The position numbers and the translations under genes are program-made. From contig OX638343.1 of NCBI GenBank assembly GCA_951813075.1, positions 2,167,999-2,231,998 of the forward strand: a stretch of DNA of 64,000 bases, in the 5' to 3' direction. The notes under the pieces were generated by a model. It worked only from the letters and a program-made list of their open reading frames with translations. It was not told the origin of the DNA and did not search any database. The DNA is from Arenicellales bacterium (lineage in GTDB: Bacteria; Pseudomonadota; Gammaproteobacteria; Arenicellales; JAJDZL01). Positions 46,832 through 63,866 of the stretch are shown here, in pieces (positions within the stretch are counted from its first letter, which is position 1; each line of letters begins with the position of its first letter).

Positions 46832-48253
46832 CTACCAAGCGAACACCTTGTCCATACCGACCATTTTTACACCCGTGAGTGCAGACGCCTCCAAAGACAA
46901 GGCGCGTAAGTCTTCCGATTCCAGATTGTGCACCGATGACTTGCCGCATGATTTTGCTAACATGGTAATTTCCATCGTAATAGCAGTCAGAAATCTCGCG
47001 ACCCGCTCCGCGCTTGCCGCAATATCGACCCTCTTCTCCAATTCAGGGTCCTGGGTGGTGATACCAACCGGACATAACCCTGTGTGGCAGTGGTGACACG
47101 CACCTGGTGAAGTGCCCAGTTTCTTGTAATCCTGCTCATATCTCGGCGAATTGCAGCCAAGCGCAATCATCGCAGCATTACCAATCATTACCGCATCCGC
47201 TCCTAGTGCCAGGCATTTAGCCGCGTCAACACCAGAGCGAATCCCACCAGAAATCACCAGCGATACTTTGCCTGTCATTCCGCATTCATCCAATGCTTCT
47301 CGCGCAGGTTTGATCGCTGACAACGTCGGGATACCGGTATGATTCAGTAAAAGCTCCGGTGACGCGCCTGTTCCGCCCTCGGCGCCGTCAACCACGACAA
47401 CGTCAGCACCAGCTTTTGCTGCGATCGCAACATCGTAGCGCGGTCGCGTTGCTCCGATCTTGACAAATATCGGAATACGGAAATCAGTCGCCAGACGCAA
47501 TTCCTCAATCTTAACGGCCAGATCATCTGCGCCAAGGAAGTCTGGATGTCTTACAGTGGAGCGCTGATCCACACCTTCGGGCAACTTTCGCATCATGGAT
47601 ACACGCGGTGACACCTTCATTCCAAGTAGCAATCCACCAGTGCCCGGTTTGGCACCTTGGCCCATAACCAACTCGAATCCGTCTGCTTGTCTCAGATGAT
47701 TAATATCCACGCCATAACGTGAGGGCGTCATCTGATAAACCAAGCACTGACTGGCCTGCCGCTCTTCGTCCAGCATGCCGCCTTCGCCTGTGCAGGTCAT
47801 CGTACCCACCTTGGAAGCGCCATAGCCGAGCGCTGTCTTGGCGCTGGCGGACAACGCGCCGAAAGACATGGACGCGATGTATACGGGAATTTTCAGTTCG
47901 ATCGGTTTTTCTACACGGCCTGTTCCGCCACCTAATATTGTTGTTGTATTGCAACTTTCCCGATAACCCTCAAGTGGCAATCGGGTCATTGTGGCGGGTA
48001 CAAATGTAAGATCATCAAATGTTGGGAGACGTTTGTTGAACGTGTTGTATCCGCGTACCTGATATCTTCCCAGTTGGGCAAGTGCCTGCACCTCTGCTAT
48101 GGCATCCGGAGTCCAACGAGTTGACCCACCTTCGTCATAGGATGACGGTACACCAGCTGGCCTATTCGGAATCGCATTATCGTTGAATGCAATATCCTCT
48201 TCGGATGGAGGCTCAAATGGGAATTGATAAGATTTGTTCAGATCATGAGCCAC
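46832..48253 (-). CDS. glxD: FMN-binding glutamate-synthase-like subunit (GlxD / N-methylglutamate synthase MgsC type)
   Basis: 473 residues of the glutamate-synthase central barrel. FMN and substrate motifs include G-E-G-G-M-L and V-D-G-A-E-G-G-T-G-A-S; a 3Fe-4S cluster is indicated by C-H-H-C-H-T-G-L-C. It would combine ammonia or an amine with a glutamate skeleton, using the partner subunits of the two upstream genes. In methylamine users the same trio makes N-methylglutamate. It overlaps glxC by 16 bp. Which amine is used is not visible. Confidence 0.88.
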   Translation of the reverse strand: MAHDLNKSYQFPFEPPSEEDIAFNDNAIPNRPAGVPSSYDEGGSTRWTPDAIAEVQALAQLGRYQVRGYNTFNKRLPTFDDLTFVPATMTRLPLEGYRESCNTTTILGGGTGRVEKPIELKIPVYIASMSFGALSASAKTALGYGASKVGTMTCTGEGGMLDEERQASQCLVYQMTPSRYGVDINHLRQADGFELVMGQGAKPGTGGLLLGMKVSPRVSMMRKLPEGVDQRSTVRHPDFLGADDLAVKIEELRLATDFRIPIFVKIGATRPRYDVAIAAKAGADVVVVDGAEGGTGASPELLLNHTGIPTLSAIKPAREALDECGMTGKVSLVISGGIRSGVDAAKCLALGADAVMIGNAAMIALGCNSPRYEQDYKKLGTSPGACHHCHTGLCPVGITTQDPELEKRVDIAASAERVARFLTAITMEITMLAKSCGKSSVHNLESEDLRALSLEASALTGVKMVGMDKVFAW

Positions 48254-48930
48254 GCGCTTGCCTCCCGACTTTCAAAATACCAAAGGCGTTCGCCTGAGAC
48301 GATTTTCTGCCATTCGCGACTGGAATCCTCCAGCCCATATTGACTCAGCTGAGATTCAACCGAATCGACTTCTTCTGGTTGCGGTTCAACGATTTTTGTA
48401 TCGACACCCAGAGATTCAATTGCGCCAACAACCCAAACTTCGCCAGCCCATAGTGCATCCGCGCAGGAGACGCCAGCCCCACCCAAAGCGATGATACGTC
48501 CCGCATGCGACATGAAGCCGGACTGATAACCCAGCTTTCCTTCTACGATGATGGTGCCGCCTTTCATTGCCACTCCGCATCTCGGTCCACTATCGCCTTT
48601 GATGTGTATGGTGCCACCCAACATAGAAGCGCCGGTAGCCATGCCCGCATAGCCATTAATAGTAATGTGTCCGTCAGACATCCCCTCACCGGTACCCCAG
48701 CCCGCATTTCGTTCGATTTCTAAAATTGCTCCATTATTCAATCCACCGCAATAGTAACCGACACTTCCTTCAAACCGAACTTTCGCACTGGCTGGCAGCC
48801 CAACACCCAGATTATGTCGAGACAGAGTCTCTCGAACGTAAACGCTCTGACCGCTGAGTACCGCAGCCTTGATCTCCTCGTTGACTTCGCGGATGCTTCT
48901 TCGACCCACAATAATTTCGACTTCTTTCAT
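48238..48930 (-). CDS. glxC: GXGXG-domain glutamate-synthase-like subunit (GlxC / MgsB type)
   Basis: 230 residues of repeated glycine-rich beta-helix turns (G-G-L-N-N-G-A-I, G-Y-A-G-M-A-T-G-A, G-G-T-I-H-I-K-G-D, G-G-T-I-I-V-E-G), equivalent to the C-terminal domain of glutamate synthase GltB. It is the structural subunit linking the amidotransferase and FMN subunits. Overlaps glxB by ATGA and glxD by 16 bp. Confidence 0.88.
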   Translation of the reverse strand: MKEVEIIVGRRSIREVNEEIKAAVLSGQSVYVRETLSRHNLGVGLPASAKVRFEGSVGYYCGGLNNGAILEIERNAGWGTGEGMSDGHITINGYAGMATGASMLGGTIHIKGDSGPRCGVAMKGGTIIVEGKLGYQSGFMSHAGRIIALGGAGVSCADALWAGEVWVVGAIESLGVDTKIVEPQPEEVDSVESQLSQYGLEDSSREWQKIVSGERLWYFESREASAWLMI

Positions 48931-49874
48931 GCTGCTTTGAGATGCTGTGTATTCACTGGCCAGATTCTTACCATCGACGGACCATCGTAATTAATCACAT
49001 CCAACGCGTCCGGTAGCACGCATCTAACGGCCTGCTCTTCTGTGGCTGCTGTCAGTTCATTGTTTTCCTCAACAGTAACAAGCGGCTTCATTGCAAAACG
49101 ATCTTTTGCGAAACCGATTCCATTCAGGTCGCTGATCATATAGGTGAAAACCCCGTCGATTTCAACAATGGACTTTTGCAATGCCTGCTTCTGATTCAAT
49201 CCGCGTTTCATCTGGTCTGAGATCCACACGGCGATGAGTTCACTGTCGTTTTCTGTCAGGAACCGATAGCCAACAGACTCCAGGCGATCACGCCAGGTGT
49301 AGTAATTTGTGATCTGTCCGTTATGAACTATGGCTACGTCTGGAAAAGGGCGCGCCCAGAATGGATGACTCGCATCAGGCAGTACATCAGACTCCGTAGC
49401 GAGTCGTGCGTGTCCGAGCCCATGTGTACCGCGAATTGTCCGTAACTGATGCTTGTCTGCAACCGCCAACGCGTCACCTGTATCTTTGATGATCTCGAGT
49501 GATTTACCGACAGACTGTACTGCAATCCTATCTGCGATCTGATCCGCATCCATAATCCATTTGTCGAGATGGCGCGGTTCCCTGATGAGCATTCTCACCG
49601 AATAGTGCGCTTCTTCGGTTTCGTATATCAGAGGTTCTTCAAGCAAGTCTGAGTCATGTTCTTTTAGTGTGAGGCGAAATTCATCAAGGTCGACGTTAAG
49701 ATTCTTTCGATTGAACCCCATGAGTCTAACCTTGTATCCGACACTGCATGGGTCGGAGTAGATCGCGAACCCGGTGGAATCAGCCCCTCTGTGAGATTGG
49801 GCACCCATCAGCTCTACGAGATCTGCCCCGACCTGCCCATACTCGCGCAGTATTCTTCCCGCTATACCGCACAT
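48927..49874 (-). CDS. glxB: Class II glutamine amidotransferase subunit (GlxB / MgsA type)
   Basis: 315 residues starting M-C-G-I-A-G, so Cys2 is the N-terminal nucleophile after Met removal. S-H-R-G-A-D-S-T-G, G-H-A-R-L-A-T, and V-H-N-G-Q-I-T-N-Y are the substrate motifs. It would release ammonia from glutamine (or accept the amide of a gamma-glutamyl amide) for the partner subunits. First of the three-gene overlapping set, 38 bp after the GntR gene. Confidence 0.88.
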   Translation of the reverse strand: MCGIAGRILREYGQVGADLVELMGAQSHRGADSTGFAIYSDPCSVGYKVRLMGFNRKNLNVDLDEFRLTLKEHDSDLLEEPLIYETEEAHYSVRMLIREPRHLDKWIMDADQIADRIAVQSVGKSLEIIKDTGDALAVADKHQLRTIRGTHGLGHARLATESDVLPDASHPFWARPFPDVAIVHNGQITNYYTWRDRLESVGYRFLTENDSELIAVWISDQMKRGLNQKQALQKSIVEIDGVFTYMISDLNGIGFAKDRFAMKPLVTVEENNELTAATEEQAVRCVLPDALDVINYDGPSMVRIWPVNTQHLKAA

Positions 49875-49911: not shown

Positions 49912-50616
49912 TTAATTTACGTCTATAGATTCTGACTGTTCGACTGTTTCGCGATTCGATTTTTCAAGCGCACCCCGTTGAAGCTCAAGACCATCCTGGA
50001 TATGTTTTCTCATCTGCTGTATGGCAAGTTGTTCATCTTGACTTCTCAGTACATCGCAAAGCTCAAGATGACCTTCGAGTGATTTTTCCATATCTTTAGG
50101 ACTGAATTCCGCAAATAGAAAATATGATCTGCTACGATTCCATATGCCGTCAAACATTTCTACCAGAACGGCGTTGCCTGTAGCGAGTACGAATTCTCGG
50201 TGAATTGCAAGGTTGGCTTTGAAGTAATCCGAAAGCGACTGCTGAACATTGTCCTCAATTTTCTTGATAACTGACTTCAGACGGTCGATATCATCGGCAT
50301 TCGCATTCTGGCTTAGCCAGCCGAGTGCATAACATTCAACAGCCTCGCGTGCCTGATACAGTTGCCGTACTTCGTCGTCGGTGTATTCGCGCAATTTAAA
50401 TCCGCTTCGCCCCAAACGCATAAGTACGCCCTCACCTTCCAACCTGAGCAAAGCGTCGCGGACCGGAGTACGACTGACTTCCATCCGGTCCGCAAGGTCT
50501 TCCTGAATGATTCGTTGATGAGGATCAATTGTGCGATTCAGCACCGCTTGCAGAATCTGATCGTACACTTCATCCGACAATCGAGACAAATGTTTGATTT
50601 TGCTGAATGTCTCCAT
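49912..50616 (-). CDS. GntR family regulator, FadR/FCD type
   Basis: 234 residues. The N-terminal winged helix has E-D-L-A-D-R-M-E-V-S-R-T-P-V-R-D-A-L-L-R-L; the C-terminal FCD ligand domain has A-N-L-A-I-H-R-E-F and H-L-E-L-C-D-V-L metal-type histidines. FCD members bind palindromes with TAC/GTA-type half sites. The palindromes at 62515-62530 and 55452-55467, centred on GTATAC, are the natural candidates. It lies between the importer and glx genes on the same strand. Confidence 0.9.
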   Translation of the reverse strand: METFSKIKHLSRLSDEVYDQILQAVLNRTIDPHQRIIQEDLADRMEVSRTPVRDALLRLEGEGVLMRLGRSGFKLREYTDDEVRQLYQAREAVECYALGWLSQNANADDIDRLKSVIKKIEDNVQQSLSDYFKANLAIHREFVLATGNAVLVEMFDGIWNRSRSYFLFAEFSPKDMEKSLEGHLELCDVLRSQDEQLAIQQMRKHIQDGLELQRGALEKSNRETVEQSESIDVN

Positions 50617-50658: not shown

Positions 50659-51375
50659 CTAGGTTGATCGGGCACGATTGCCAAAATATGATTCCTGGAT
50701 AGCCTTGTCTGCGCGCAGTTCATCCGCGGTGCCACTACCGATGATTCTGCCGGCTTCAAGCAGATAGATGTATTGAGCAAGACCAAGCGTAAAATTGGCA
50801 TTCTGCTCGGCGATCAGAATTGTCAGGCCATGTTGGGAATTAAGCCGCGTCAGCGCTGTTGCAATATCTACACAGACTTTGGGTGAAAGCCCGATCGTGG
50901 GTTCGTCCACCAACAAAAGTCGGGGACTGTTCATCAGCGCCCGTCCGAGGGACACCATCTGACGTTCGCCACCACTTTGGGTACCAACTTCCTGGTTCTG
51001 TCTTTTTTTCAGTATTGGAAATAGATCGAATACCAAATCAAGGTTTGACTCTATAGCGGCGCGACTGGTGTAGGCACCGACCAGAAGGTTTTCCCTGACG
51101 TTCATCTGTGTGAAAAGATTACCTCGTTCGGGAGCGTAGCCGATGCCCAAACGCACAATCTTCGAGGTGGGTAGCTGACGCAGGTTTTTATCCTCGAAAG
51201 TGATACTTCCAGTTGCGTCGTTCAGCCCTAGCACTGCATCCAGCAATGTGGATTTGCCGGCGCCGACAGGTCCAATGATAGCGGCGATATCGCCCGCCTC
51301 AACATCGATAGATGCCCTGTTCAAAGACATCGCCTTGCTGTAGAACACTGACAGATTTTGAATTTGCAACATCAT
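50659..51375 (-). CDS. livF: Branched-chain-type ABC importer ATPase, LivF-like
   Basis: 238 residues. Walker A is G-P-V-G-A-G-K-S-T, the signature is S-G-G-E-R-Q, and Walker B is L-L-L-V-D-E-P-T-I-G-L-S-P. It is the short LivF-type ATPase working with LivG. It is the last gene of the importer series, 17 bp after livG. Confidence 0.92.
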   Translation of the reverse strand: MMLQIQNLSVFYSKAMSLNRASIDVEAGDIAAIIGPVGAGKSTLLDAVLGLNDATGSITFEDKNLRQLPTSKIVRLGIGYAPERGNLFTQMNVRENLLVGAYTSRAAIESNLDLVFDLFPILKKRQNQEVGTQSGGERQMVSLGRALMNSPRLLLVDEPTIGLSPKVCVDIATALTRLNSQHGLTILIAEQNANFTLGLAQYIYLLEAGRIIGSGTADELRADKAIQESYFGNRARST

Positions 51376-51392
51376 CGCTTTGTCTGAATTCG

Positions 51393-52199
51393 CTATTCCT
51401 GTTCCCAGCCGGTGCCTAGATATGCATTTTGCACATCCGTGTCTGCAACGACTTCCCGAAAAGTGCCCTCCGTCATCACCTCACCAAAATTGATCACCAC
51501 GACGCGGTCCACGAGTGGCTCCAGTGCCTTGAGATCGTGACTGACGATCATATACGTCGTACTATGCGTCGCTCTTCTGTTAGTCAGTAATTCCGAAATC
51601 TGGTCGATTTCCTTGACGGTAAGTCCGGCGAAGACCTCATCCAGCAGCAGGATACTTGGTTCAGTGGCAAGGGTGCGTACCAGTTCCAGTCGGCGCAAGT
51701 CACCCATGGCCAGCTCGTATGGATACTGTTGCGCACGTTCACCGCCAAGTCCGACGCTTTCAGCGATTTTTAGTTCCTTTTCATCATCAGCACCGTGGAG
51801 CAGCATATCAAACAAACCATCGGGCATCATACCAACTCGAATGTGCTCCTGAATTGTCAGATCGTGAAATGGACGTGGCACCTGATAGGTTCTTGCCAAC
51901 CCAGCGAGAACACGCTTGTGGATGGACAAGCGATCGATACAGTTTCCGTTGAGAAATACACTACCCTGGTCGGGCGTGATTTCTTTGGTCAGCAAATTTA
52001 ACAATGTAGTCTTTCCAGCTCCGTTGGGACCGATAATTCCCAAGGACTCTCCCGGGTTTACGTGTAGGGAAACATTCTTGGTTGCCATTAGTCCGCCGAA
52101 AGACTTTGTTAACCCCCGCGCTTCAAGCATCGGTTGCGGGCGATTCTCGCTGGTGGCCGATAATGTGTCGAAACCCTTGTTTTCAGTGAAATAACTCAT
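51393..52199 (-). CDS. livG: Branched-chain-type ABC importer ATPase, LivG-like
   Basis: About 268 residues from the ATG at 52199, which overlaps the livM stop (ATGA). Walker A G-P-N-G-A-G-K-T-T, Walker B I-L-L-L-D-E-V-F-A-G-L. Signature motif is degenerate (A-M-G-D-L-R-R), in place of the usual L-S-G-G-Q, which is worth noting. Partner of LivF. Confidence 0.9.
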   Translation of the reverse strand: MSYFTENKGFDTLSATSENRPQPMLEARGLTKSFGGLMATKNVSLHVNPGESLGIIGPNGAGKTTLLNLLTKEITPDQGSVFLNGNCIDRLSIHKRVLAGLARTYQVPRPFHDLTIQEHIRVGMMPDGLFDMLLHGADDEKELKIAESVGLGGERAQQYPYELAMGDLRRLELVRTLATEPSILLLDEVFAGLTVKEIDQISELLTNRRATHSTTYMIVSHDLKALEPLVDRVVVINFGEVMTEGTFREVVADTDVQNAYLGTGWEQE

Positions 52200-53161
52200 G
52201 TCGATTTTCTTCGCATGAAACCCTCGACAAACCAATTCACTGTGATCTGGATCAGTCGATGTATTCCTCTAGGCTGAAGTACGTAGAGAACCAGTGTTGC
52301 GACGCCGTAGATCAGATAACGCTCTGAACCTGGAATGTAAGGTCTTAGAAATTCGAGAAGCAACGTAAGGAAGAATGCACCCATGATGGGGCCGGTAATT
52401 GTGCCCGCACCACCTAGCAGGCAAGCAACCAGAATGGTGAAAAGAAAACTGACATCAAACAATCCGCGGGGTGCAATCGATCCCAGATAGTGTATGTACA
52501 TCGCACCACCGAGTCCGGCAATCATTGCGCTCAGCGTGAACGCGAACAGTTTGAGTTTGGTTGTGTTCAGACCACAGGCGCGGACTGCCTCCTCGTTCAT
52601 TCCGATCGAACCCAGCGCTGTACCGAGTCGGGTTCTGATCAGCAACCACATGGCGAGCCCAAGTGTGAACATCACTCCGAATGAGAGATAGTAGTTGCTC
52701 ACTGCACCAGTAACAATACTCGGAAGTCCCGTCAATCCACGCGTACCTCCGGTGATGTCTGGTGCGACCACCTGCACGAGTCCATACATCAGTTCCATGA
52801 AAGCCAGAGTCACAAGCGCAAAGTAGGTTCCGCGTATCCTGAGCGCTGGCAGGAAAAACAAAGTACCTGCAATCATTGTTACAAGCACCGCTGCAGGAAT
52901 CGTGATGTAAAGCGGCATGTCAAGATGATGGGTCAAAAGGGCGGTTGTATATCCGCCAATACCAATCAGAAACGGATGTCCGAAGCTGATGTATCCCGTC
53001 CTCCCGGACAGGACATCCCAGCTGATAGCGAAGATAGCGATGTAGTTTGCAAAAACAAAGATCCGCACTGTCGCAGAACTCGCGAATAACGGTAGCGCCA
53101 GCATCGCGATACCAAAAATCATCCATCCGAGGAAACCCTTGTTCGTACCCTTCGCGAACAC
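52196..53161 (-). CDS. livM: Branched-chain-type ABC importer permease, LivM-like
   Basis: About 321 residues from a GTG at 53161, 2 bp after the livH stop with GGAG upstream; the frame is open further, but that part overlaps livH and is polar and cysteine-rich, unlike LivM. Eight or more membrane helices and the family segment G-R-T-G-Y-I-S-F-G-H and R-T-R-L-G-T-A-L-G-S-I-G. Second channel subunit. Confidence 0.9.
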   Translation of the reverse strand: MFAKGTNKGFLGWMIFGIAMLALPLFASSATVRIFVFANYIAIFAISWDVLSGRTGYISFGHPFLIGIGGYTTALLTHHLDMPLYITIPAAVLVTMIAGTLFFLPALRIRGTYFALVTLAFMELMYGLVQVVAPDITGGTRGLTGLPSIVTGAVSNYYLSFGVMFTLGLAMWLLIRTRLGTALGSIGMNEEAVRACGLNTTKLKLFAFTLSAMIAGLGGAMYIHYLGSIAPRGLFDVSFLFTILVACLLGGAGTITGPIMGAFFLTLLLEFLRPYIPGSERYLIYGVATLVLYVLQPRGIHRLIQITVNWFVEGFMRRKST

Positions 53162-53163
53162 AA

Positions 53164-54018
53164 CTATAGCTCCGCTTTGCCGAACAATCCCTTCGGTGCG
53201 ATGATCAGCACCAGTATGATCAATAGCATTGTTGCAACGCCTCTGAGTTCCGCGGCGATTAATGTCGTCGTGATCGTTTCCAGCATTCCGATGACGTGCG
53301 CAGCGACCAGCCCACCGAGTATGCTGCCTATCCCACCCACGATCACAACCGCGACTGCAATGATGAGTGGTGCCACCCACATGGCCGGTGCAAGTTGGGT
53401 ATAGGTTGCGAGGAAAATTCCAGCCATCGCTCCCAGACCACCTGACAATCCCCAGATTATCAGGTTGATTCGGTCTGGATCGATTCCAGATATTACGGCT
53501 CCTTTTGGATCCATCGACACGGCGCGGATGGCGCGTCCGATGTGTGTCTTACCGATAAACAGGAACAACGCCGCCAACACCACCCAGCTTGTCACAGCTG
53601 CAACTACAAGGTTGTAGGTGACAATCACATCACCGACTCGAAGAACACCAGGAATCAGCGGCCACATGGATTTGGGAGACGGAGAGAATACAACGATGAT
53701 CGCCGCTTGAGTGACGATGGCGAAAATCAGCGTGGAAATTTCAATTGCGATTGCGTCTCCTTTGAGTTTCCTGATCAGGATTACGTAAACAATCAACCCG
53801 AGCAGGACACCCGCAGCGGTCGCGATCACGAAACTTGGCACCTTACCAAGACCTAGGATCTGAGCACTCTGATAATAGATATAACCACCGAACATTATAA
53901 ATGCGCCATAACCAAGGTTCAGTACACGACCGACACTGAAAATCATGGTAAACCCGATTGCGATCAGCGCGTAAAGACCGCTGAGCAATAATCCCGGTAA
54001 CAATATCTGTATTAACAC
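53164..54018 (-). CDS. livH: Branched-chain-type ABC importer permease, LivH-like
   Basis: 284 residues from a GTG, with about eight membrane helices and the LivH segments G-F-T-M-I-F-S-V-G-R-V-L-N-L-G-Y-G and G-R-A-I-R-A-V-S-M-D. It follows the binding-protein gene after a strong hairpin (54055-54091). Confidence 0.9.
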   Translation of the reverse strand: MLIQILLPGLLLSGLYALIAIGFTMIFSVGRVLNLGYGAFIMFGGYIYYQSAQILGLGKVPSFVIATAAGVLLGLIVYVILIRKLKGDAIAIEISTLIFAIVTQAAIIVVFSPSPKSMWPLIPGVLRVGDVIVTYNLVVAAVTSWVVLAALFLFIGKTHIGRAIRAVSMDPKGAVISGIDPDRINLIIWGLSGGLGAMAGIFLATYTQLAPAMWVAPLIIAVAVVIVGGIGSILGGLVAAHVIGMLETITTTLIAAELRGVATMLLIILVLIIAPKGLFGKAEL

Positions 54019-54054
54019 AACGCTAGCCGATACATCAAACTATCCGAAAATCAA

Positions 54055-54091
54055 CGACCCGTCCCCGGCGAATTCCACCGGAAACGGGTCG
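54055..54091 (-). terminator. Hairpin between binding protein and permease genes
   Basis: CGACCCGT pairs with ACGGGTCG, with an inner CCGG/CCGG stem. On the minus strand a T-rich tract (TTGATTTTC) follows. Such hairpins in importer operons let binding-protein mRNA outnumber permease mRNA. Confidence 0.6.
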
Positions 54092-54101
54092 AACTTCTCG
54101 G

Positions 54102-55418
54102 TTATTTCACCCAAGATGGCTCCTGGAATTTACCAGTTGCGAACTTGGGTGGATATATCACGGCAGAAGAACCATCCTCATACCACTGCACCACGACCAT
54201 TGCGGGAGAACCATCATCAAACGGTGGTGTGATATCGAACTTTACATTGTGCGTATATTCGCGCTGTGTTCGAGGTTCAATCTCACCGCGTTTCCAGAAT
54301 GCATAGCGAAACCATAATTCGCCATCCTTGTAAAGTTTGAGGTCTTCATTCTCCATTTCACGGATCCAGTCATCCAACGGTGCGAAACCACCGGCTCGTT
54401 CAGCAGCAGCGAATGCTGTATAGATGCCATAGTAGGCGTTGAATCCATTGAAGTGTGGGTAAATCGGACGCTCGGACCCATATCTTGCCTTGTAGTTCGT
54501 GATAAACTCGGCGGATCGATCATCCAATGCCATACCGACCGAAGGTACCGGGCTCAGTGTTGATGTTCCTGCTCCCAATCCACCAGTGTCATTCCAGAAA
54601 TCCTGTCCGAACGCGGCGACGTTGACGCCAGTCATCGGAATCGGTACCTGCAGTTTCACATATTGGGATGCCGGAACCTGACTTCTAACAGAAGATACCA
54701 GATAGATGAAATCTGCACCTGAGCTGACTGCTTTGTTGAATAGAGGAGCGAAATCGACCGTATTGGCATCGTAGATGATCTTTTCACTGATCTTGATTCC
54801 GGCCTCAGGTGCAAGCAAGCCTTCCACCAAGCCAGCGATGGACACACCAAATGCCGTGTCCTCGTACATCAGTACAGTGCTGGTGTATCCCATTTCCTTT
54901 GCCAGTACGTCCTTACCGAAGTCGATGTAAAGTGTTGCCAGTGCCTCATCGCAAGCGATATTCATAAAGTACATTTTGTACTTGTCGTATTCGTTGACCA
55001 CGAGATCGATTATTCCGACATACGATGTCCAAGTATCCAGTGTCGGTGTCTTGTATTCCGCCATTCGCGGCAGCCATCCGAGAGAGACATCATCGATACT
55101 GCCAGAAATGATGAAATCGACATTTTCGGATTCGACGAGATACTCGTACGCTTTGATGCCTTCGGCAACATCTTCACGGGTATCCGCTTTGACAAACTTG
55201 ATCATTCGTCCGTCAAGCACACCCCCGGCAGCATTGAGTTCGTCGATCGCAATCTCAGCACCTCTGATTGTGCTAAGACCGGTATCGGATGCAAACGATC
55301 CAATGTATCCAACCACTATCGGGTCTTTGTCTTGAGCGATAGAAGATCCACTCATTCCAGATCCCAACAACATTGCAGCAACCGCTAGCAATAATTTGGA
55401 TGATTTAGATATTTTCAT
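54102..55418 (-). CDS. ABC importer substrate-binding protein, Leu/Ile/Val family (periplasmic-binding type 1)
   Basis: 438 residues with a signal peptide ending near S-S-I-A-Q. The mature start D-P-I-V-V-G-Y-I-G-S-F-A-S and G-A-E-I-A-I-D-E-L-N-A-A-G-G-V-L match the LivJ/amide-urea binding family. The ligand is not predictable; since the regulon carries amine-handling enzymes, an amine or amino compound is the inferred substrate. Its promoter region holds a 16-bp palindrome. Confidence 0.88.
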   Translation of the reverse strand: MKISKSSKLLLAVAAMLLGSGMSGSSIAQDKDPIVVGYIGSFASDTGLSTIRGAEIAIDELNAAGGVLDGRMIKFVKADTREDVAEGIKAYEYLVESENVDFIISGSIDDVSLGWLPRMAEYKTPTLDTWTSYVGIIDLVVNEYDKYKMYFMNIACDEALATLYIDFGKDVLAKEMGYTSTVLMYEDTAFGVSIAGLVEGLLAPEAGIKISEKIIYDANTVDFAPLFNKAVSSGADFIYLVSSVRSQVPASQYVKLQVPIPMTGVNVAAFGQDFWNDTGGLGAGTSTLSPVPSVGMALDDRSAEFITNYKARYGSERPIYPHFNGFNAYYGIYTAFAAAERAGGFAPLDDWIREMENEDLKLYKDGELWFRYAFWKRGEIEPRTQREYTHNVKFDITPPFDDGSPAMVVVQWYEDGSSAVIYPPKFATGKFQEPSWVK

Positions 55419-55451: not shown

Positions 55452-55467
55452 ACAGGGTATACCCTGT
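55452..55467. promoter_or_regulatory. 16-bp perfect palindrome upstream of the binding protein, candidate GntR operator
   Basis: ACAGGGTATACCCTGT is identical on both strands. It lies 34-49 bp before the binding-protein start and overlaps a possible -10 (TATACC). It shares the GTATAC centre with the palindrome at 62515-62530. Confidence 0.65.
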
Positions 55468-55635: not shown

Positions 55636-56046
55636 CTATCGGTAATCAACTTCACCATTTTCGTCATGAATCAGTGCATCAAATTCGATTTCAATCATCA
55701 TACCGGGCATCGTCAATCCGGCTTCGACACCGGAAGTAACCGGATCAATGCCCTTGAATACCTCACCGTGTGCGCGCACGAAATCACCCGCTTTGGAAAT
55801 GTCTGACAAAAAAGCGCGCGTTCGCACCACATGGCGCATTTGCGCTCCAAGCTGTCGCAATGTGTTTTCAGTTCGTTCGAATATATATTTCGACTGTCTG
55901 TATGCGTCGTAAGGCGCATGCAGGCGGCCACTCGGTTCAATTGCTGTGGTGCCGGCAACGAAAACGAAAGGACCGACGCGCTTGGCACGGCTGTATGCGC
56001 CGATTTCCTCAAACCGTCCGCCTGTTGAAACTTTCGCCACCGTCAT
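55636..56046 (-). CDS. RidA/YjgF family protein
   Basis: 136 residues of chorismate-mutase-like fold: V-F-V-A-G-T-T-A, R-T-R-A-F-L-S-D-I, and M-I-E-I-E-F-D-A-L near the C-terminus. RidA proteins hydrolyse reactive enamine/imine intermediates. The archetypal Arg before the final strand aligns with a Leu here (V-E-A-G-L-T-M-P), so this is a divergent, non-archetypal member. Coupled to the malate-dehydrogenase-like gene by ATGA; a role on an imine made in this pathway is inference. Confidence 0.85.
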   Translation of the reverse strand: MTVAKVSTGGRFEEIGAYSRAKRVGPFVFVAGTTAIEPSGRLHAPYDAYRQSKYIFERTENTLRQLGAQMRHVVRTRAFLSDISKAGDFVRAHGEVFKGIDPVTSGVEAGLTMPGMMIEIEFDALIHDENGEVDYR

Positions 56047-57233
56047 GAATCTCTCTCCAGTCTCGCACGCACCGCATTGGCGGCCTCCTGAAGCGCAATC
56101 AGCTCATCTGCGCTCAATGACATCTCTACAACATCCAGAACACCAGTTCGTCCGAGTATGCAAGGTACACCGAGCACGGTATCCTCAATTTGGTATTCGC
56201 CCTTGAGCAATATCGATACCGGAACCGAACCGGCTACGGCGCCTCGAATGTGATTGATCACCTCAACGGTTGCGTGGGCTGGTGCAATTGTCGCGGAACC
56301 TTTCTTTCGCAGAGCAACCACGGCACCTCCTGCTGATACCGTCTGGTTGCGACACAGCTGAATTTGCTCGTGACTCAGAAAATCGGTCAGTGGTCGTTCT
56401 CGTATAGTGGCTTTGGATACGATGGGAACCATTTCGTCCCCGTGACTCCCTAGTGTAATAGCTTCGACGTCTGCCGCGTCCACACCTGCTGCCTGTGCCA
56501 GTGCATTGCGAAATCGAGAACTGTCGAGCGAGCCGGCCATTCCGAGTACTCGTTCACGCGGGAATCCGGTCGCTTGCAGCATCAGGTGCGTCATCTCATC
56601 CAGCGGATTACTGACCACAATGACGATTGATTGTGGGGCCAAATCAGCGATTGCGGTACCGATTGTTCGAATTATTCGCGAGTTGACATCAATCAAATCG
56701 GACCTGCTCATTCCTGGTGTCCGCGGTTGACCGGCAGTAACCACGATCAGTTCGGAATTTGCCAGAAGATTCATGACTTCACTACCGGAAACGCTCGTCG
56801 AAGAACGAGTTGACCCCCGCGCATGTTCAAGGTCGAGCGCGGTCGATTCGGCCAGACCCGGTAAGACATCAACCAGCACAATGTGACTGGCCAATCCCTG
56901 ATTCACACAAAGGTGGGCGATATTTGCGCCGACTCCGCCAACACCTACAATCGCCAATCTGTCCAGTTTTCGTGAATTGGTGTTTATCTGGCGTCGAGGA
57001 GGCTCCCATGCCGGGTTGCGCCGATATAGAATCCTGCGCATGGCTGTGGTGCCGTCAAGACGGTGGTAAGTGGGTAATTCAACCGGATGATCAAGTAACT
57101 GAACATTGAGTCGTTCGGCGGTTTCCCTCGCTTGTGCTGTAATGATGTCGCCGGAACGAATCTCAATAAACTGCCGCCCGCGGCGGTGTGCGTCAACAAC
57201 CTGTTCGTTTGCGATGACGGTAGATTGAGTCAC
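56043..57233 (-). CDS. Malate/lactate-dehydrogenase-like enzyme with BMC-type N-terminal extension
   Basis: 396 residues, about 85-90 longer than usual. The catalytic body begins near 90: NAD loop G97-V-G-G-V-G, substrate Arg171 (G-Q-P-R-T-P-G) typical of malate over lactate, D212, R240, and catalytic His264 in G-S-H-G-D-E. The extension contains G28-D-I-I-T-A-Q-A-R-E-T-A-E-R-L-N-V-Q-L, resembling the ...TP-A-R-D... segment seen on several Eut/Pdu proteins. It would reoxidise NADH inside the compartment. Overlaps the BMC-T and RidA genes by ATGA. Confidence 0.85.
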   Translation of the reverse strand: MTQSTVIANEQVVDAHRRGRQFIEIRSGDIITAQARETAERLNVQLLDHPVELPTYHRLDGTTAMRRILYRRNPAWEPPRRQINTNSRKLDRLAIVGVGGVGANIAHLCVNQGLASHIVLVDVLPGLAESTALDLEHARGSTRSSTSVSGSEVMNLLANSELIVVTAGQPRTPGMSRSDLIDVNSRIIRTIGTAIADLAPQSIVIVVSNPLDEMTHLMLQATGFPRERVLGMAGSLDSSRFRNALAQAAGVDAADVEAITLGSHGDEMVPIVSKATIRERPLTDFLSHEQIQLCRNQTVSAGGAVVALRKKGSATIAPAHATVEVINHIRGAVAGSVPVSILLKGEYQIEDTVLGVPCILGRTGVLDVVEMSLSADELIALQEAANAVRARLERDS

Positions 57234-57859
57234 GGTTCACCTCTTCCTTCAACCGATTCAATCCCTTCACAAGCCGAATTGATTGCGATTTTCACAGACT
57301 CCTCGGTACCCGATATGAACAGTCTGCCGTATCGTCCCACTGCTCGTACCTGCACCATGTCGATGACCGACGCTTTCTCCGCTTCATTAGCGGCGATGGA
57401 AATATAAGCTGCAGGTGAGCATTCGACGATACCAAGTGTTTGTCCGGGAACTACCAAAGATCCAGCCGACCATTTGTTGAGCAGCTGCGCCTGATAGGGT
57501 TCGACAGATGTGATTATCTGGGTTGATTCAATTCTTGGTTTGATGCGGTCATGCAAGCTTTGTCCGATTTCGGCGAGAATTGCATTCAGGGCGGCACTGA
57601 TATGTGAATTGGATGGTGACCGAAGGATAAAGAATCCGTATTCACGTTCCACGATCTGACTGGTTGCTTCAACCGGACTCGCTTTGAGCGCGATATCAAT
57701 CAGGCTGAACACTTCATTGCCGGGGGCGAATTCGCCGATCAGTACCGTATCGCCGGAGAGCGGAATCGATCCTTGCACTGTTGCACCGTTGTAAGCAGCG
57801 AATTTGGGTTGCAAGCGATCGATTTGCATCAACGCACGAATTTTCAGATCTTTTGCCAA
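57230..57859 (-). CDS. BMC-T trimeric shell protein (tandem BMC domains, EutL-like)
   Basis: 209 residues with two BMC-fold halves: about 8-105 (divergent, V-L-I-G-E-F-A-P-G) and about 130-205, where G-I-V-E-C-S-P-A-A-Y, A-N-E-A-E-K-A-S-V, and G-R-L-F-I-S-G-T-E-E-S-V fit the domain. Tandem-domain proteins form trimers tiling the shell facets, often with a larger, gated pore. It starts 3 bp after the aldehyde dehydrogenase stop. Confidence 0.85.
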   Translation of the reverse strand: MAKDLKIRALMQIDRLQPKFAAYNGATVQGSIPLSGDTVLIGEFAPGNEVFSLIDIALKASPVEATSQIVEREYGFFILRSPSNSHISAALNAILAEIGQSLHDRIKPRIESTQIITSVEPYQAQLLNKWSAGSLVVPGQTLGIVECSPAAYISIAANEAEKASVIDMVQVRAVGRYGRLFISGTEESVKIAINSACEGIESVEGRGEP

Positions 57860-57862
57860 ACC

Positions 57863-59245
57863 TTATTCTCCATACATTTCATCGATTTCGCGCCAGGGGC
57901 GTGATTGATAGGCGACACGCTTGATGTTGATCAAGTGCAACGCTGTGACGTTGTCGGAAACAATTGAACCGGACGCGGTTCCCGTTCCCAACATAAAACT
58001 CGGTTCCAAAGCTGTGGAAAATCCCATAGCGCCGTGGAGTGCGGGTGAGTTCACAATGACCCGGTTGACCGGTACCGTCTGGCTGAATCTAGCGACGACA
58101 TCCGGGTTATCACAGTGAACAACGCCCGTGTGCCCCCAACCACCGAACCTGGCGATGTCAGTAGCAATCTGCATACCCTGATCCTCGGATCGGGCTTCGT
58201 ACCAGGCAAGAGCGGGGTTCAGCTTCTCAGCGGATAGCGGCGCCTGCCAGCCGACTTCGGTCTGCTCGCCGACCAGCACGCGGGTTCGTGGCGGCAATTC
58301 GATATCGGCCAGTGATGCGAGTGTTGCTGGAGATTGTCCAACCCGATCAGGATCGATCATATTGCCACGTGGAAAAATCGCCTTGGCGAGACGTTCGGTT
58401 TCCTGATTGCTGCAGAAGTAGGCACCTTTGAGTTTCATTTCGGCTTTCAGTTCGCGACTGATTGAGCGGTCGACCACAATCGCCTGTTCGGATACACAGG
58501 CTGTACCATAGTCAAAGCATTTCGACGATATGACTTGCTCGGCTACCTCCGCGAGATCGTCTCGTTTGGAGGCATGCACGTAACAGGGTACGTTACCCGC
58601 GCCGACTGCAAGTGTCGGTTTGCCGGACGAATATGCCGCCTTGACCATCGCAGACCCACCTGTAGCCAGTACGACGGATGTCCGTCGATGTCGCATAAGT
58701 TCATCGGTTCCATTCAGTGTCACTGTATCAAGGCATTGGACTAGGTTCTTCGGTGCACCTGCGCGCTCTGCAGCTTGTGTTAAAATTTGCGCCGTCAACG
58801 CACCAGACTTGACACCGCGTGGATGTGGTGCGCAGACAATTGCATTGCCGGCCTTGACTGCTGACAGAGTTTTGTAAATTACCGTTGAAGTTGGATTGGT
58901 GACCGGAATCAGTGCCGCTACGACTCCCATCGGCTCACCGAAAGCAGCTATTTTTGCGACATCGTCGCGCCACAGCAAGTTCAGTGTCTTGATGTCCCGG
59001 AGCCATTCTGCAATTGACAGCGAATTGAAGAGATTTTTTATGCGCTTATCCGGTACGTTTCCATAACCGGTCTCCTCGACCGCTAATTCAGCAAGTCGAA
59101 ATGCTTCGGGTTCAATTGCCAAGGCCATCTGTTCGACAATGTTGTCGATATCCGAGGGGTTGTACACGCGGAATTTCAAGAAAGCCTCCCATGCCGCGTC
59201 AGCACATCTGCGGGCATTTGCGATTGACAGGAGGTCTGTGTCCAT
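57863..59245 (-). CDS. CoA-acylating aldehyde dehydrogenase (EutE/PduP/SauS-like)
   Basis: 460 residues from the ATG at 59245, which shares a base with the preceding stop (TAATG) and has GGAG upstream. Catalytic Cys250 lies in K-C-F-D-Y-G-T-A-C-V-S-E-Q, the form seen in acylating enzymes such as AdhE, EutE and sulfoacetaldehyde dehydrogenase SauS. It converts an aldehyde plus CoA and NAD to acyl-CoA, the usual core step of metabolosomes. No clear encapsulation peptide is seen at either end. Which aldehyde is used is unknown. Confidence 0.9.
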   Translation of the reverse strand: MDTDLLSIANARRCADAAWEAFLKFRVYNPSDIDNIVEQMALAIEPEAFRLAELAVEETGYGNVPDKRIKNLFNSLSIAEWLRDIKTLNLLWRDDVAKIAAFGEPMGVVAALIPVTNPTSTVIYKTLSAVKAGNAIVCAPHPRGVKSGALTAQILTQAAERAGAPKNLVQCLDTVTLNGTDELMRHRRTSVVLATGGSAMVKAAYSSGKPTLAVGAGNVPCYVHASKRDDLAEVAEQVISSKCFDYGTACVSEQAIVVDRSISRELKAEMKLKGAYFCSNQETERLAKAIFPRGNMIDPDRVGQSPATLASLADIELPPRTRVLVGEQTEVGWQAPLSAEKLNPALAWYEARSEDQGMQIATDIARFGGWGHTGVVHCDNPDVVARFSQTVPVNRVIVNSPALHGAMGFSTALEPSFMLGTGTASGSIVSDNVTALHLINIKRVAYQSRPWREIDEMYGE

Positions 59246-60441
59246 TATCTTTCTCCGCGTGCCACCGATTCCAGATGTCGGCGTGTAATATCCGCGCAAC
59301 CCACATCAATACCCATGTTTTCGAGTTTCCTTCCCGCAGTTTCCAATTTTCTATTTAAACTGGCCCCGGCGAGAGTGATAATTGAATCGGTTGCCGGGGT
59401 AATGACATTGGCCAGTTTCGCCGCTGACTGAAGTGGTACGAGCGATCCGACAACAGCGCAATGCAACAGATCTACAGCTTGGTCCTGGCTCGGAATTTTT
59501 CGGCTTCCACTACCGGAAATCGTTCCCGAGTATTGTTCCATCCACTCATTGTTGTCCGGGAAATCGCGCACGCCATACGGCCTGGCAGAATCGCGGCGCT
59601 CCTGCAGTAGTGTCTCCAGCAATGCAAGACAGCGCTCAGTTTCAATCAGCGAACGCAAAGTACGACGCTCCTCAAGCGCAACCGCCCCTTCGGGTAAAGT
59701 TTCACCGGACTGATGGATCAATGAGCCACCCAATAAGAGCGAGACACTTTCAACCGCCCCACCCGCGTCAGAAAATCCGCTGTGGATGACTGATGGCGCC
59801 ACGGTGATTTCGTCATAGATGGAACTCAGTGTCTGAATGCAATCTGTACGCCCGGACGGGAGAACCGCGGCAGTCGTACTGTTGCAGGATGACAGATGAA
59901 GCGTGCTGGCATTGATTTCAGTCCAAAACGGCAGGTGTTGCAATTCCACGATTGTATAGTCGGCTCGACAACCCCCGACATGCAACAACCAATCTGTTTC
60001 CAAAGCGGCAAAGGTTCTCGCTGGTGCAACGACAAGTATCTGCCCATCGCGAAGATGATCAGCAAGTACCATCGCATAAGTACGTTGTTTGTGAACCGGT
60101 CCGGTAAGAAAAATCATGTCAGCCGAGGCGACCGCAGTATCCAATTGTGCGGTTGTCTGAATGGATGAAGATTGATCGCGATCGATCTGATAGGTACCCG
60201 TCGGGCCGTCGCCGCGCAAGGTGATACCACCAGTCGAGCGAATTGCGTCCATGTCCGCGCCATAGGCGCTGAAGAGCGTGACCGACAGTCCTTCGGCCAG
60301 CAGCAGTGCTGCCAGCAGCTTGCCGTCGGCACCACCTCCCAGCACTGTTACTGCAGTTACGGATGCAGGCTGTGAGGTCGGTTTTCCTGCGCTGCTGCCT
60401 TGTTCGACAGCCCGCGTGAACCGTTCAAAGTCAGAAACCAT
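59245..60441 (-). CDS. Opine-dehydrogenase-like NAD(P) enzyme with possible encapsulation peptide
   Basis: 398 residues. A short helix (V-S-D-F-E-R-F-T-R-A-V-E-Q-G) and a Ser/Pro-rich linker precede a Rossmann fold with G-G-G-A-D-G; the C-terminal helical half has a conserved-looking V-I-H-S-G. The arrangement resembles octopine/nopaline dehydrogenases, which join or split N-substituted amino acids (secondary amines) and oxo compounds. It may release an aldehyde or ketone from an N-alkyl amino acid. Family call is from fold pattern; ketopantoate-reductase-like enzymes are the alternative. Confidence 0.6.
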   Translation of the reverse strand: MVSDFERFTRAVEQGSSAGKPTSQPASVTAVTVLGGGADGKLLAALLLAEGLSVTLFSAYGADMDAIRSTGGITLRGDGPTGTYQIDRDQSSSIQTTAQLDTAVASADMIFLTGPVHKQRTYAMVLADHLRDGQILVVAPARTFAALETDWLLHVGGCRADYTIVELQHLPFWTEINASTLHLSSCNSTTAAVLPSGRTDCIQTLSSIYDEITVAPSVIHSGFSDAGGAVESVSLLLGGSLIHQSGETLPEGAVALEERRTLRSLIETERCLALLETLLQERRDSARPYGVRDFPDNNEWMEQYSGTISGSGSRKIPSQDQAVDLLHCAVVGSLVPLQSAAKLANVITPATDSIITLAGASLNRKLETAGRKLENMGIDVGCADITRRHLESVARGER

Positions 60442-60545: not shown

Positions 60546-60845
60546 TCAACCGCTCAGATTATCTAGAACTGACTCAACTTCGTCATGCGGGCGCGGGATC
60601 AGGTGCACGGACACCACTTCACCGACCTTGTTAGCTGCACTGGCACCAGCATCTGTTGCTGCCTTTACGGCACCCACTTCACCGCGGACCATGACGGATA
60701 CCAGTCCGCCACCGACTTTGGTCTGACCGACGATACTGACGTTTGCTGCCTTGACCATCGCATCAGCAGCCTCAATTGAGGCGACAATTCCTCGGGTTTC
60801 AATCATGCCGAGCGCTGTTTGACCAACTTCTGCACTTTTTGCCAT
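60546..60845 (-). CDS. BMC-H hexameric shell protein (PduA/EutM/CcmK-like)
   Basis: 99 residues, one BMC domain: A-L-G-M-I-E-T-R-G at the start, hexamer-edge D28-A-M-V-K32-A-A-N, pore loop K43-V-G-G-G, and H-L-I-P-R-P-H at the end. Hexamers tile the facets of the compartment and admit small metabolites. A perfect AAGGAGG lies 6 nt before the ATG, suggesting high expression, as expected for the major shell protein. Confidence 0.96.
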
Positions 60846-60893: not shown

Positions 60894-61166
60894 TTATTTT
60901 TGCGTGAGAGTAATCTCATCAATGATCGCGACAACCGTCGCGTCCGTCGCTATATTGGATATCCCGGCTGGAATCCTTGCGGCAGACCCGCTCACCACCA
61001 GAACGAGTTCACCGACGCCTGCGCCGATGTTGTCGACCGCCACGACGGACGATTCAAGCAGATTGCCTGCCCCATCCTGAATATCGACGACCAGCAGTGT
61101 AAGGCCTGCCAGTTTTTTATCTTTGACGCTTGCTATAATGGTTCCGACTACTCGCGCAATCCGCAT
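60894..61166 (-). CDS. BMC-P pentameric vertex protein (EutN/CcmL family)
   Basis: 90 residues: M-R-I-A-R-V-V-G-T-I-I-A-S-V-K, V-V-A-V-D-N-I-G-A-G-V-G-E-L-V-L-V-V-S-G-S-A-A-R, the EutN/CcmL signature. Pentamers cap the vertices of the polyhedral shell. Its ATG overlaps the stop of the ligase gene (TGATG). With BMC-H and BMC-T this gives the minimal three-component shell. Confidence 0.96.
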   Translation of the reverse strand: MRIARVVGTIIASVKDKKLAGLTLLVVDIQDGAGNLLESSVVAVDNIGAGVGELVLVVSGSAARIPAGISNIATDATVVAIIDEITLTQK

Positions 61167-62467
61167 CAGAAATTCTCCAGATATCGCTCAATTTCGGTCG
61201 GTGTGACCTGTGCGGCAAGAAAATCGACTTCGCGCTGTGCCTGTTGAAGCAAAATAGTCAACCGGTCTTCTCCGATGACATTCCGGAGCCATTCGGATTC
61301 CTGTGCCTGCTGGATTCCTGTTGCGATGTCCAGTGGGATTGGGTCGGCGTCGGTCAATTCGTATGCGTTGCCAGCACACATTTCAGTGGGTTGCAGGTTG
61401 TTTTCGATTCCGTCCAGCCCGGCCGCAATTTCAGTAGCGAATAGATAGTACGGATTGCAGTCGGCGGAACCATCGCGCTTTTCGATTCGCACTGCGTGGT
61501 CTGCACCTTCGATCACTCTGAGTGCGACTGTTCGGTTGTCCATGCCCCAGGTTGCGTTGGTCGGGCAGAAAGTATAAGGCTGGCGACGGCGGTACGCATT
61601 TGGAGTTGTAGCACTTGCAATTGCGGATTCGGCCATGCGAGTCTGCATTCCGGCAAGATAGGATTTCCCGAAATTTGACAGTTTTCCGTTGCCGTCGGAG
61701 AATTGGTTGGTGCGATCTTTCCATACGGAGTGGTGAGTATGAAATCCGTTACCGGATTCATCAGAAAAGGGCTTGGACATGAAGGTCGCATGATAGCCGT
61801 GTATACGAGCGATATCGCGCACGATCTCACGAAACATGACGACTCGGTCTGCGACCAACAGTGCATTGTCGTAGCGCATGTTGATTTCAATTTGTCCAGC
61901 GGCGTATTCAGGGTTAGACTGTTCAATCGGTATGCCCACATCGTTGAGTTGGCGACGAATTGGTCCGATGACATGCTCAAGTTCGGCTGCCCGAGTTAAA
62001 CTATAGACCTGAATGCCGGTATCCTTGGGTTTCATGGTTTCCGGATCCAGCAGGTAGAATTCCAATTCAGCACCGATCAGAACCGCCAGATTCATTGATT
62101 CCGCGCGCTTGATTTGATCGATGAGCGCACCACGCGGATCAATTGGTACCGGTTTGTGATCCATACCCTCCAAATAGCCCAAACAAATTGCAAGTCCGGG
62201 TTCCCAAGGTGTCGAAACCGGTTGCGAAAGTGGAAACATGTGCATGTCGGGATATCCGTTGTCAAAATTCACGTAGGGTGTATCCCAGACATCGCTGGTC
62301 ATGTCCAGTGCCAGCAGGGCGATAGAGAGTGCATTTCCATTCTTGCAGACATTCGGCCAGTTGCTGGCGGGAATTCGCTTGCCGCGCATGATGCCGTTGA
62401 GATCGCCGGCTCCCATAGCAACTGTGTGTGTGCCTTCCGGTAGTGTTTCAACATTCTTATCTGTCAT
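61166..62467 (-). CDS. Glutamine-synthetase-like gamma-glutamyl-amine ligase
   Basis: 433 residues of glutamine synthetase fold: metal ligands in G-A-E-L-E-F-Y, Y-A-A-G-Q-I-E-I-N, F-M-S-K-P-F with G-N-G-F-H-T-H-H-S, and the substrate Arg region N-R-T-V-A-L-R-V and R-I-E-K-R-D-G-S-A-D-C-N-P-Y. The short length and lack of the adenylylation loop separate it from GlnA type I and place it near PuuA, GmaS and IpuC, which join amines to the gamma-carboxyl of glutamate. First gene of the shell operon. Confidence 0.85.
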   Translation of the reverse strand: MTDKNVETLPEGTHTVAMGAGDLNGIMRGKRIPASNWPNVCKNGNALSIALLALDMTSDVWDTPYVNFDNGYPDMHMFPLSQPVSTPWEPGLAICLGYLEGMDHKPVPIDPRGALIDQIKRAESMNLAVLIGAELEFYLLDPETMKPKDTGIQVYSLTRAAELEHVIGPIRRQLNDVGIPIEQSNPEYAAGQIEINMRYDNALLVADRVVMFREIVRDIARIHGYHATFMSKPFSDESGNGFHTHHSVWKDRTNQFSDGNGKLSNFGKSYLAGMQTRMAESAIASATTPNAYRRRQPYTFCPTNATWGMDNRTVALRVIEGADHAVRIEKRDGSADCNPYYLFATEIAAGLDGIENNLQPTEMCAGNAYELTDADPIPLDIATGIQQAQESEWLRNVIGEDRLTILLQQAQREVDFLAAQVTPTEIERYLENF

Positions 62468-62514
62468 ACCGTTCTTCTTACCGATTGAATACTGGTCGTT
62501 GACGCAAATTGTGA

Positions 62515-62547
62515 ATACTGTATACAGTATACGCTATACTAAGTCAA
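62515..62547 (-). promoter_or_regulatory. Shell-operon promoter overlapped by a 16-bp perfect palindrome
   Basis: On the minus strand TTGACT (62547-62542) and TATACA (62524-62519) are 17 bp apart, a good sigma-70 promoter. ATACTGTATACAGTAT at 62515-62530 is a perfect palindrome covering the -10. This geometry suits repression by the GntR/FCD regulator encoded at 49912-50616. It also lies in the divergent gap to the flavoprotein. Confidence 0.7.
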
Positions 62548-62723
62548 GTTTGGCTAGTGCGAATTGAGTCCGTTCGTAATCTAAAATAGTTTGAATGATC
62601 ACGTAAAAATTTTGAGTTTATTCAATGGGATGATTGTTGAGTCAAAAAGCAGTAATTTTCTGACTTGACGTAAAAGTTAGAAGTGATTGATTGAGGTACG
62701 CTGATCCATCGGGTTTTGAAAGG

Positions 62724-63866
62724 ATGAAAGGTAGTGAGATTGTAGTAGTCGGCGCGGGTATTGCCGGTGTGATGAGTGCTTTGAGCCTGCAGCAAAAGGG
62801 GTATCGTGTTGCACTGATCGATCGATGGGAGCCCGGACATCCCCGAGCTTCATCGACTGACTACAATCGACTGTTTCGCAATATTCACGGGGCGGATCGC
62901 ATGTACACACTGTGGGCGAGACAGTCCAGATTGCGTTGGATGGAACTGCAGGCAGAACTGAATTGTGTGCTCTATGTCGAATGCGGCGCGTTGGTGATCG
63001 CAACGCAACGTCATTCGGATTGGGAAGATGCGACATTCGCCACATTTGATGACTTGGGTGTACCCTATTTCAAATATGACGTTGATGAGTTATCAGTTCG
63101 ATTTCCGCAATTCAAATTTGACAATGTCGCTTACGGGCTTTACGAGCCGGAAGCGGGTGCCTTGATGGCGCATCGAGCGATTATCGAGTCGACAAAAAAG
63201 TTTGTTCGAGAGGGAGGTAGTGTTCATCGCCATCACGTTCGGACTGACGAACACGAAAGATTGCACCTTGATGGGAAACCCTTGGAAGCTGATCTAGTCG
63301 TTGTCAGCGCAGGTCCTTGGCTTGGAAGCATGTACCCGAGAACAATAGCGCCGATTCTGGATATCGTTCGACAGAATATTATCTATACATCGACACCTAA
63401 TGCAGACACTACATACGACGGCACCGGCATGCCATGCTGGATCGATCATGGCCATTCAGCTTATGGCGCACCATCAATTGAGGGTAGCGGTGTCAAGGCG
63501 GCAATTGCTTGGACTGAGGCTATCATCGATCTGGACAATGATGAACGAATTGTCGATCAGGCTACATTCACGCGAACCCGACAATATCTTCGAAATCGCC
63601 TACCAGGGTTGGCCAGAGAAAGAGCTGTCGACCAAAAAGCATGTCAAATTGCCATGACACCGGACACACATTTCATTATTGACCACCATCCACAACATGA
63701 AAATGTTGTGATAGTGGGCGGATGTTCGGGACATTTATTCAAGCACGGTCCGGTACTGGGTGATTTTGTAGCAGGTGTGGGTCTGCGGGAATTTGGAACC
63801 GCCGAGCGATTCAAGATAAATTCGAGATTGCGACTGTCGTCGGAGGATTCACCATCGGGACGATAG
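62724..63866 (+). CDS. Sarcosine-oxidase-like FAD-dependent amine oxidoreductase (DAO family)
   Basis: About 380 residues from the ATG at 62724, placing the FAD loop V-V-G-A-G-I-A-G at the usual distance; a TTG at 62691 is possible. The C-terminal motifs K-A-C-Q-I-A-M-T-P-D-T-H-F-I-I-D and G-G-C-S-G-H-L-F-K-H-G-P match monomeric sarcosine / N-methyltryptophan oxidases, including the Cys that binds FAD covalently. Such enzymes oxidise secondary amino acids to an aldehyde plus the amino acid. Divergent from the shell operon across a shared regulatory gap. Confidence 0.87.
   Translation: MKGSEIVVVGAGIAGVMSALSLQQKGYRVALIDRWEPGHPRASSTDYNRLFRNIHGADRMYTLWARQSRLRWMELQAELNCVLYVECGALVIATQRHSDWEDATFATFDDLGVPYFKYDVDELSVRFPQFKFDNVAYGLYEPEAGALMAHRAIIESTKKFVREGGSVHRHHVRTDEHERLHLDGKPLEADLVVVSAGPWLGSMYPRTIAPILDIVRQNIIYTSTPNADTTYDGTGMPCWIDHGHSAYGAPSIEGSGVKAAIAWTEAIIDLDNDERIVDQATFTRTRQYLRNRLPGLARERAVDQKACQIAMTPDTHFIIDHHPQHENVVIVGGCSGHLFKHGPVLGDFVAGVGLREFGTAERFKINSRLRLSSEDSPSGR

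Follow-up and report, generated by a model that had tools for sequence, protein, structure and literature searches.

A conserved operator-like motif at the shell-operon promoter of an uncharacterised microcompartment locus, and the GntR-type regulator that very probably reads it

The 64,000-nucleotide stretch of DNA analysed here (the window) carries a microcompartment gene cluster with a perfect 16-bp palindrome, ATACTGTATACAGTAT, on the promoter of its shell operon, and the question raised by this locus is whether the palindrome is an operator and, if so, which protein reads it. We report a comparison of 80 loci that encode the glutamine-synthetase-like ligase (GS) of this cluster, 61 of which also carry shell genes (BMC loci). 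Related gene clusters, about 60 in number, share what is very probably a DNA switch centred on the palindrome, at which a regulator from the cluster itself would sit on the promoter and hold the protein-shelled compartment off until the substrate appears. A widespread marine alpha/gamma-proteobacterial microcompartment locus, so far uncharacterised, would thereby gain a defined regulator and a precise predicted operator, with a predicted regulon of the shell operon, the glutamate-synthase-like trio, the ABC transporter and the DAO oxidase.

Our literature search found no paper describing a locus type with the GS-like ligase and the glutamate-synthase-like trio, or its regulator. For FCD regulators, sites with the core TGTATACA have precedents, as do accessory boxes at 7-12 nt and operators built of tandem repeats (PMC7797058, PMC4494728, PMC8012715); as far as the searches go, the novelty lies in the regulon and in a regular array of 7-bp units on the promoter of a microcompartment.

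The gene cluster and the shell-operon promoter

The features of the locus are collected in Table 1. The gene set between 46832 and 63866 (ligase, shell, aldehyde dehydrogenase, malate-dehydrogenase-like protein, RidA, transporter, glutamate-synthase-like trio and DAO oxidase) is found again in other alpha- and gammaproteobacteria, Ruegeria, Phaeobacter, Hoeflea and Sulfitobacter among them. The compartment is probably amine-degrading, and the substrate may be an amine whose glutamyl conjugate is converted to an aldehyde and then to an acyl-CoA. An N-terminal stretch of about 90 additional residues in the malate/lactate-dehydrogenase-like protein (56043-57233) matches EutQ weakly and is possibly an encapsulation element.

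Table 1. Features of the locus and its promoter, in window coordinates
Feature	Position	Strand	Basis or remark
Perfect 16-bp palindrome ATACTGTATACAGTAT	62515..62530	no strand	Overlap zone of two 15-bp operator motifs
Predicted operator motif copy 1, TGAATACTGTATACA	62512..62526	no strand	14/15 to TGTATACWGTATACA
Predicted operator motif copy 2, TGTATACAGTATACG	62519..62533	no strand	14/15 to TGTATACWGTATACA
7-bp-spaced hexamer array GAATAC-T-GTATAC-A-GTATAC-G-CTATAC	62513..62539	no strand	Sequence; three clear units, fourth weak
-35 hexamer TTGACT, shell-operon promoter	62542..62547	-	Read from sequence
-10 hexamer TATACA, within predicted operator	62519..62524	-	Sequence; register shared with L035/L043/L063/L065
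GS-like amine-glutamate ligase, first gene of operon	61166..62467	-	Pfam Gln-synt_C
EutN/CcmL shell vertex protein	60894..61166	-	
BMC-H shell protein	60546..60845	-	
Glycerol-3-phosphate-dehydrogenase-like protein, acylating-type aldehyde dehydrogenase, BMC-T (CcmP-like)	57230..60441	-	Order conserved in relatives
Lactate/malate-dehydrogenase-like protein with N-terminal extension, and RidA-like protein	55636..57233	-	
ABC transporter (substrate-binding protein, two permeases, two ATPases)	50659..55418	-	Downstream, same strand as shell operon
FCD-type GntR regulator, proposed operator binder	49912..50616	-	Pfam GntR + FCD; orthologue-motif co-occurrence
Glutamate-synthase-like trio (class-II amidotransferase, GXGXG subunit, FMN subunit)	46832..49874	-	
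FAD-dependent (DAO) oxidase, divergent from GS	62691..63866	+	

A first-pass annotation of the window had described a perfect 16-bp palindrome covering the -10 of the shell-operon promoter. The palindrome is present exactly as it was given, and on the minus strand, upstream of the GS gene start at 62467, the promoter reads TTGACT, 17 bp, TATACA, with the -10 inside the palindrome. A consensus promoter scanner run on the window did not list this promoter because it demands T as the last base of the -10; the promoter call therefore rests on conservation of the register in relatives.

Approximately one perfect 16-bp palindrome is expected by chance per 64 kb, and the window holds three, of 16, 16 and 18 bp, so that the bare symmetry of 62515-62530 is not significant and comparison must decide. 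Within three mismatches of ATACTGTATACAGTAT, 0.05 matches were expected in the window and 2 were found. The whole 3.14-Mb genome holds no second copy of the 16-mer at two mismatches or fewer. Other places in the genome with 2 mismatches that were examined (367262 and 489204) both lie in coding sequence.

A 15-bp motif conserved across related loci

Unbiased k-mer counts returned the words ATACAGTA, TGTATACA and ACTGTATAC, which recur upstream of GS, the amidotransferase (GATase), the transporter and the regulator and were not found in the counts upstream of RidA. Scored at a threshold of at least 13 of 15 matches, the consensus 15-mer TGTATACWGTATACA lies upstream of GS in 59 of the 61 BMC loci (against 0.17% of shuffled regions), upstream of the glutamate-synthase-like GATase in 29/31 BMC relatives and upstream of the transporter operon (SBP) in 27/38 relatives, whereas none of the 50 RidA upstream regions used as an internal control has it. 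In 1.45 Mb of sequence, 144 of the 158 motif places stand ahead of GS, GATase or transporter genes. The DAO upstream region was found in 60 of the 61 BMC loci and holds the motif in 58 of those, and the oxidase is possibly co-regulated from the same operator. At the transporter promoter of the window the 15-mer was not found, unlike in most relatives.

Conservation among relatives with the operon had been named in advance as a check on the palindrome, and the motif is indeed kept in nearly all of them. The site is real and conserved; what did not survive is the even 16-mer as its unit, which is exact in only 3/61 orthologous promoters (50/61 at two mismatches or fewer) and which we reject in favour of the 15-bp TGTATACWGTATACA. 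In L044, one of the two BMC loci whose GS promoter lacks the motif, a 26-bp perfect palindrome, GGCAGCCCGGGCATGCCCGGGCTGCC, stands upstream of GS instead; it could be another operator or a terminator.

In 52/59 promoters a TTG occupies a fitting -35 position 13-20 bp upstream of the 15-mer, whereas most of the adjoining 8-bp bins have about 9/59; the -10 therefore falls inside the predicted operator, as it does in the window and as the annotation had claimed for it. Among relatives the motif lies anywhere between about -38 and -190 from the GS start, and occlusion of the -10 is therefore not to be assumed in every one of them. We consider it highly likely that the motif is the operator of a self-regulating FCD-GntR repressor that occludes the -10 and is released by a pathway metabolite. 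The sign of regulation cannot be read from sequence, and the sites far upstream of GS in some relatives would suit a regulator that binds as an activator or dual regulator rather than as a plain repressor; we regard this as unlikely, since the TTG count puts the -10 inside the operator, the classic position of a repressor, and the related proteins Atu1419 and NanR are repressors (PMC7797058, PMC8012715).

The FCD-GntR regulator and its co-occurrence with the motif

The proposed reader is a member of the FCD (FadR-type) subfamily of the GntR family, with PF00392 and PF07729 both above cut-off and a fold that matches FCD structures. The best Foldseek hits of the predicted fold (mean pLDDT 88) are PmiR, McbR, Atu1419 and TM0439, with FadR lower (TM about 0.48), and by this ranking the regulator appears to belong with the VanR-group FCD proteins. 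Its orthologues are 39-49% identical, and the best paralogue within its own genome 26%. The helix-turn-helix (HTH) residues E39, S48, R49, T50 and R53 are invariant in 38 orthologues and align, in our own alignment, with Glu34, Ser44, Arg45, Thr46 and Arg49 of Atu1419, which are the DNA-contacting residues of that protein (PMC7797058). Equally invariant are N135, H139, H183 and H205, a predicted Asn/His3 metal site whose pattern matches Asn137/His141/His192/His214 of the Atu1419 metal site and agrees with the Asp/Asn plus three His expected of metal-binding FCD domains.

Among GATase-bearing loci the motif is present in all 35 that have a regulator orthologue and in 1 of the 7 with none nearby; a whole-genome search of this exception (L028) located an orthologue elsewhere in its genome. 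Six sampled motif-less genomes that carry these genes, and which could be partly related to each other, lack an orthologue genome-wide. In a forward test within the family to which G107, the Phaeobacter genome containing L022, belongs, in which the motif was scored first and the protein second, the orthologue was found in 5/5 motif-positive genomes, G107 excluded, and in 0/40 motif-negative genomes. The regulator of G107 itself lies on another contig, and there the motif is still found 114 bp from the regulator gene; in L066, L088 and L089 the GntR gene is divergent from GS with the motif in between. The motif occurs at the regulator's own promoter, as well as at the transporter promoter, in relatives, and shared gene context together with motif co-occurrence defines one orthologous regulator group with one regulon. 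The suggestion that the product of 49912-50616 reads the site is supported by a motif that follows its orthologues genome by genome.

One genome, G059, has the operon and the motif and no orthologue was found in it; its assembly is in 320 contigs and the contig ends in a gltC-like gene. This case would fit a site read by some other transcription factor that is simply inherited together with the locus. We judge such a factor very improbable given the motif at the regulator's own promoter even where the regulator is on another contig, the agreement of presence and absence in the forward test and in the six motif-less carriers, and DNA-contacting residues that match those of a TGTATACA binder. 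Two further genomes, G056 and G057, each hold a single isolated strict motif, and no regulator orthologue was found in them; lone motifs of this number are at roughly chance level. In G021, a genome without the ligase gene, a strict motif at L124:7593-7607 is flanked by an AraC-type gene and a purK-like gene, and a GntR with 35% identity is encoded 1.1 kb away.

Geometry of the predicted operator and proposed mechanism

The conserved unit TGTATACWGTATACA is made of GNATAC hexamers, one per 7 bp. Alignment of 128 sites on the core shows TGTATACA to be near-invariant. Weaker GNATAC boxes accompany it at 7 bp, as a pair, one to each side, in 82 of the sites and on a single side in the other 46, the presence of a flank in all 128 being in part demanded, for one side, by the 15-mer used for site finding. 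The near-invariant core CTGTATACAG has the FCD-type operator form NyGTNxACNy, in which GT and AC are spaced 2-3 nt, as GT-AT-AC. The box downstream is GAATAC in 38/59 sites and its mirror form GTATTC in 1/59, so the outer units are direct repeats. The hexamer GTATAC is palindromic by itself, the two 15-mers of the window share 8 bp, and the 16-bp palindrome, as their overlap zone, is a by-product of the 7-bp-spaced units. That it is a chance palindrome, or an RNA hairpin or cruciform with no regulator, as its expected frequency and the two others of its size class in the window might suggest, is scarcely credible when its sequence, beyond symmetry, is conserved in 59/61 loci, its presence goes with that of the regulator in the GATase-bearing loci and in the forward test, and its mostly direct-repeat flanks would break a hairpin.

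For the repressor that we favour, we infer binding and action as follows. Regulator subunits would recognise GTATAC hexamers every 7 bp, as the core TGTATACA plus weaker flanking boxes, on an array that in the window extends from approximately the start point across the -10 and the spacer and comes within 3 bp of the -35. With no inducer, the bound regulator would block RNA polymerase and keep GS, shell and aldehyde dehydrogenase off; blocking is the best reading because the -10 lies inside the operator in most promoters. In this genus the transporter, regulator and glutamate-synthase-like genes would probably be kept off too, since no motif was found in the gap between RidA and the transporter, in the window or in same-genus relatives, and a single operator may consequently control all 16 kb, regulator gene included, so that the regulator would limit its own expression. 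A pathway metabolite, perhaps bound at the FCD Asn/His3 metal site, would then cause release; the metal site and the pathway genes hint, weakly, at a carboxylate, perhaps a glutamyl conjugate.

A close parallel is Atu1419, a VanR-group FCD GntR of Agrobacterium fabrum (PDB 6z74/6za3), which binds ATGTATACAT (PMC7797058). It shares with the window regulator the FCD fold, the TGTATACA core of its sites, the Asn plus three His metal site at matching positions and a Ser-Arg-Thr...Arg recognition helix, and one of its sites lies between the -35 and -10 of its own gene. The two proteins are, however, only 18-19% identical in structural alignment; Atu1419 uses separate 10-bp palindromes 190 bp apart, with looping, rather than tandem hexamers at 7 bp, and its effector, methylene-tetrahydrofolate, and its genes, which degrade hydroxycinnamates, are unlike the window pathway (PMC7797058).

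NanR of E. coli, also an FCD-GntR repressor, acts on three close direct hexamer repeats, (GGTATA)3, where its dimers assemble side by side and cooperatively, three dimers on three repeats (PMC8012715). Direct hexamer repeats set close together are present here as well. The NanR hexamer (GGTATA against GTATAC) and pathway differ from those of the window, and NanR needs a 32-residue N-terminal extension that the window regulator lacks, only about 12 residues preceding the HTH domain (Pfam GntR from residue 13). In operators of the FadR subfamily a strong palindrome is accompanied by weaker boxes whose distance from its centre is 7-12 nt, and the 2-nt GT-AT-AC spacing is a known variant (Suvorova 2015, PMC4494728); the boxes here, at 7 nt, resemble these accessory half-sites, which in that subfamily accompany only some of the sites, singly or as a pair, whereas here every site is flanked, with the reservation on site finding given above. 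As with the regulators encoded in BMC loci in general (catalogue PMC8217296), the gene for this one lies in the locus. TmoR, the R. pomeroyi GntR repressor of the adjacent tmm, has a different gene context (PMC13390433).

We tentatively suggest, as a possibility rather than an expectation, that two to four dimers sit side by side on overlapping TGTATACA cores every 7 bp, a cooperative VanR-group array without the N-terminal extension of NanR, which if true would give a sharp switch for building the whole microcompartment. The motif can be searched for in new genomes and may lead to unlinked pathway genes, and the regulator offers a handle on the substrate, as whatever frees it from the 22-bp array would be the pathway signal.

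Two further perfect palindromes lie in the window. The one of 16 bp, ACAGGGTATACCCTGT (55452-55467), also has a GTATAC core and stands in the gap ahead of the transporter gene; we found no support for reading it as another copy of the operator, its best 15-mer match being 10/15, and same-genus relatives with the same gene order have neither the motif in that gap nor this palindrome. By our own estimate, however, a palindrome of this kind around one of seven GTATAC words has a chance probability of about 0.7%. The other, ATTGTCGAGCTCGACAAT, is an 18-bp palindrome at 30069-30086.
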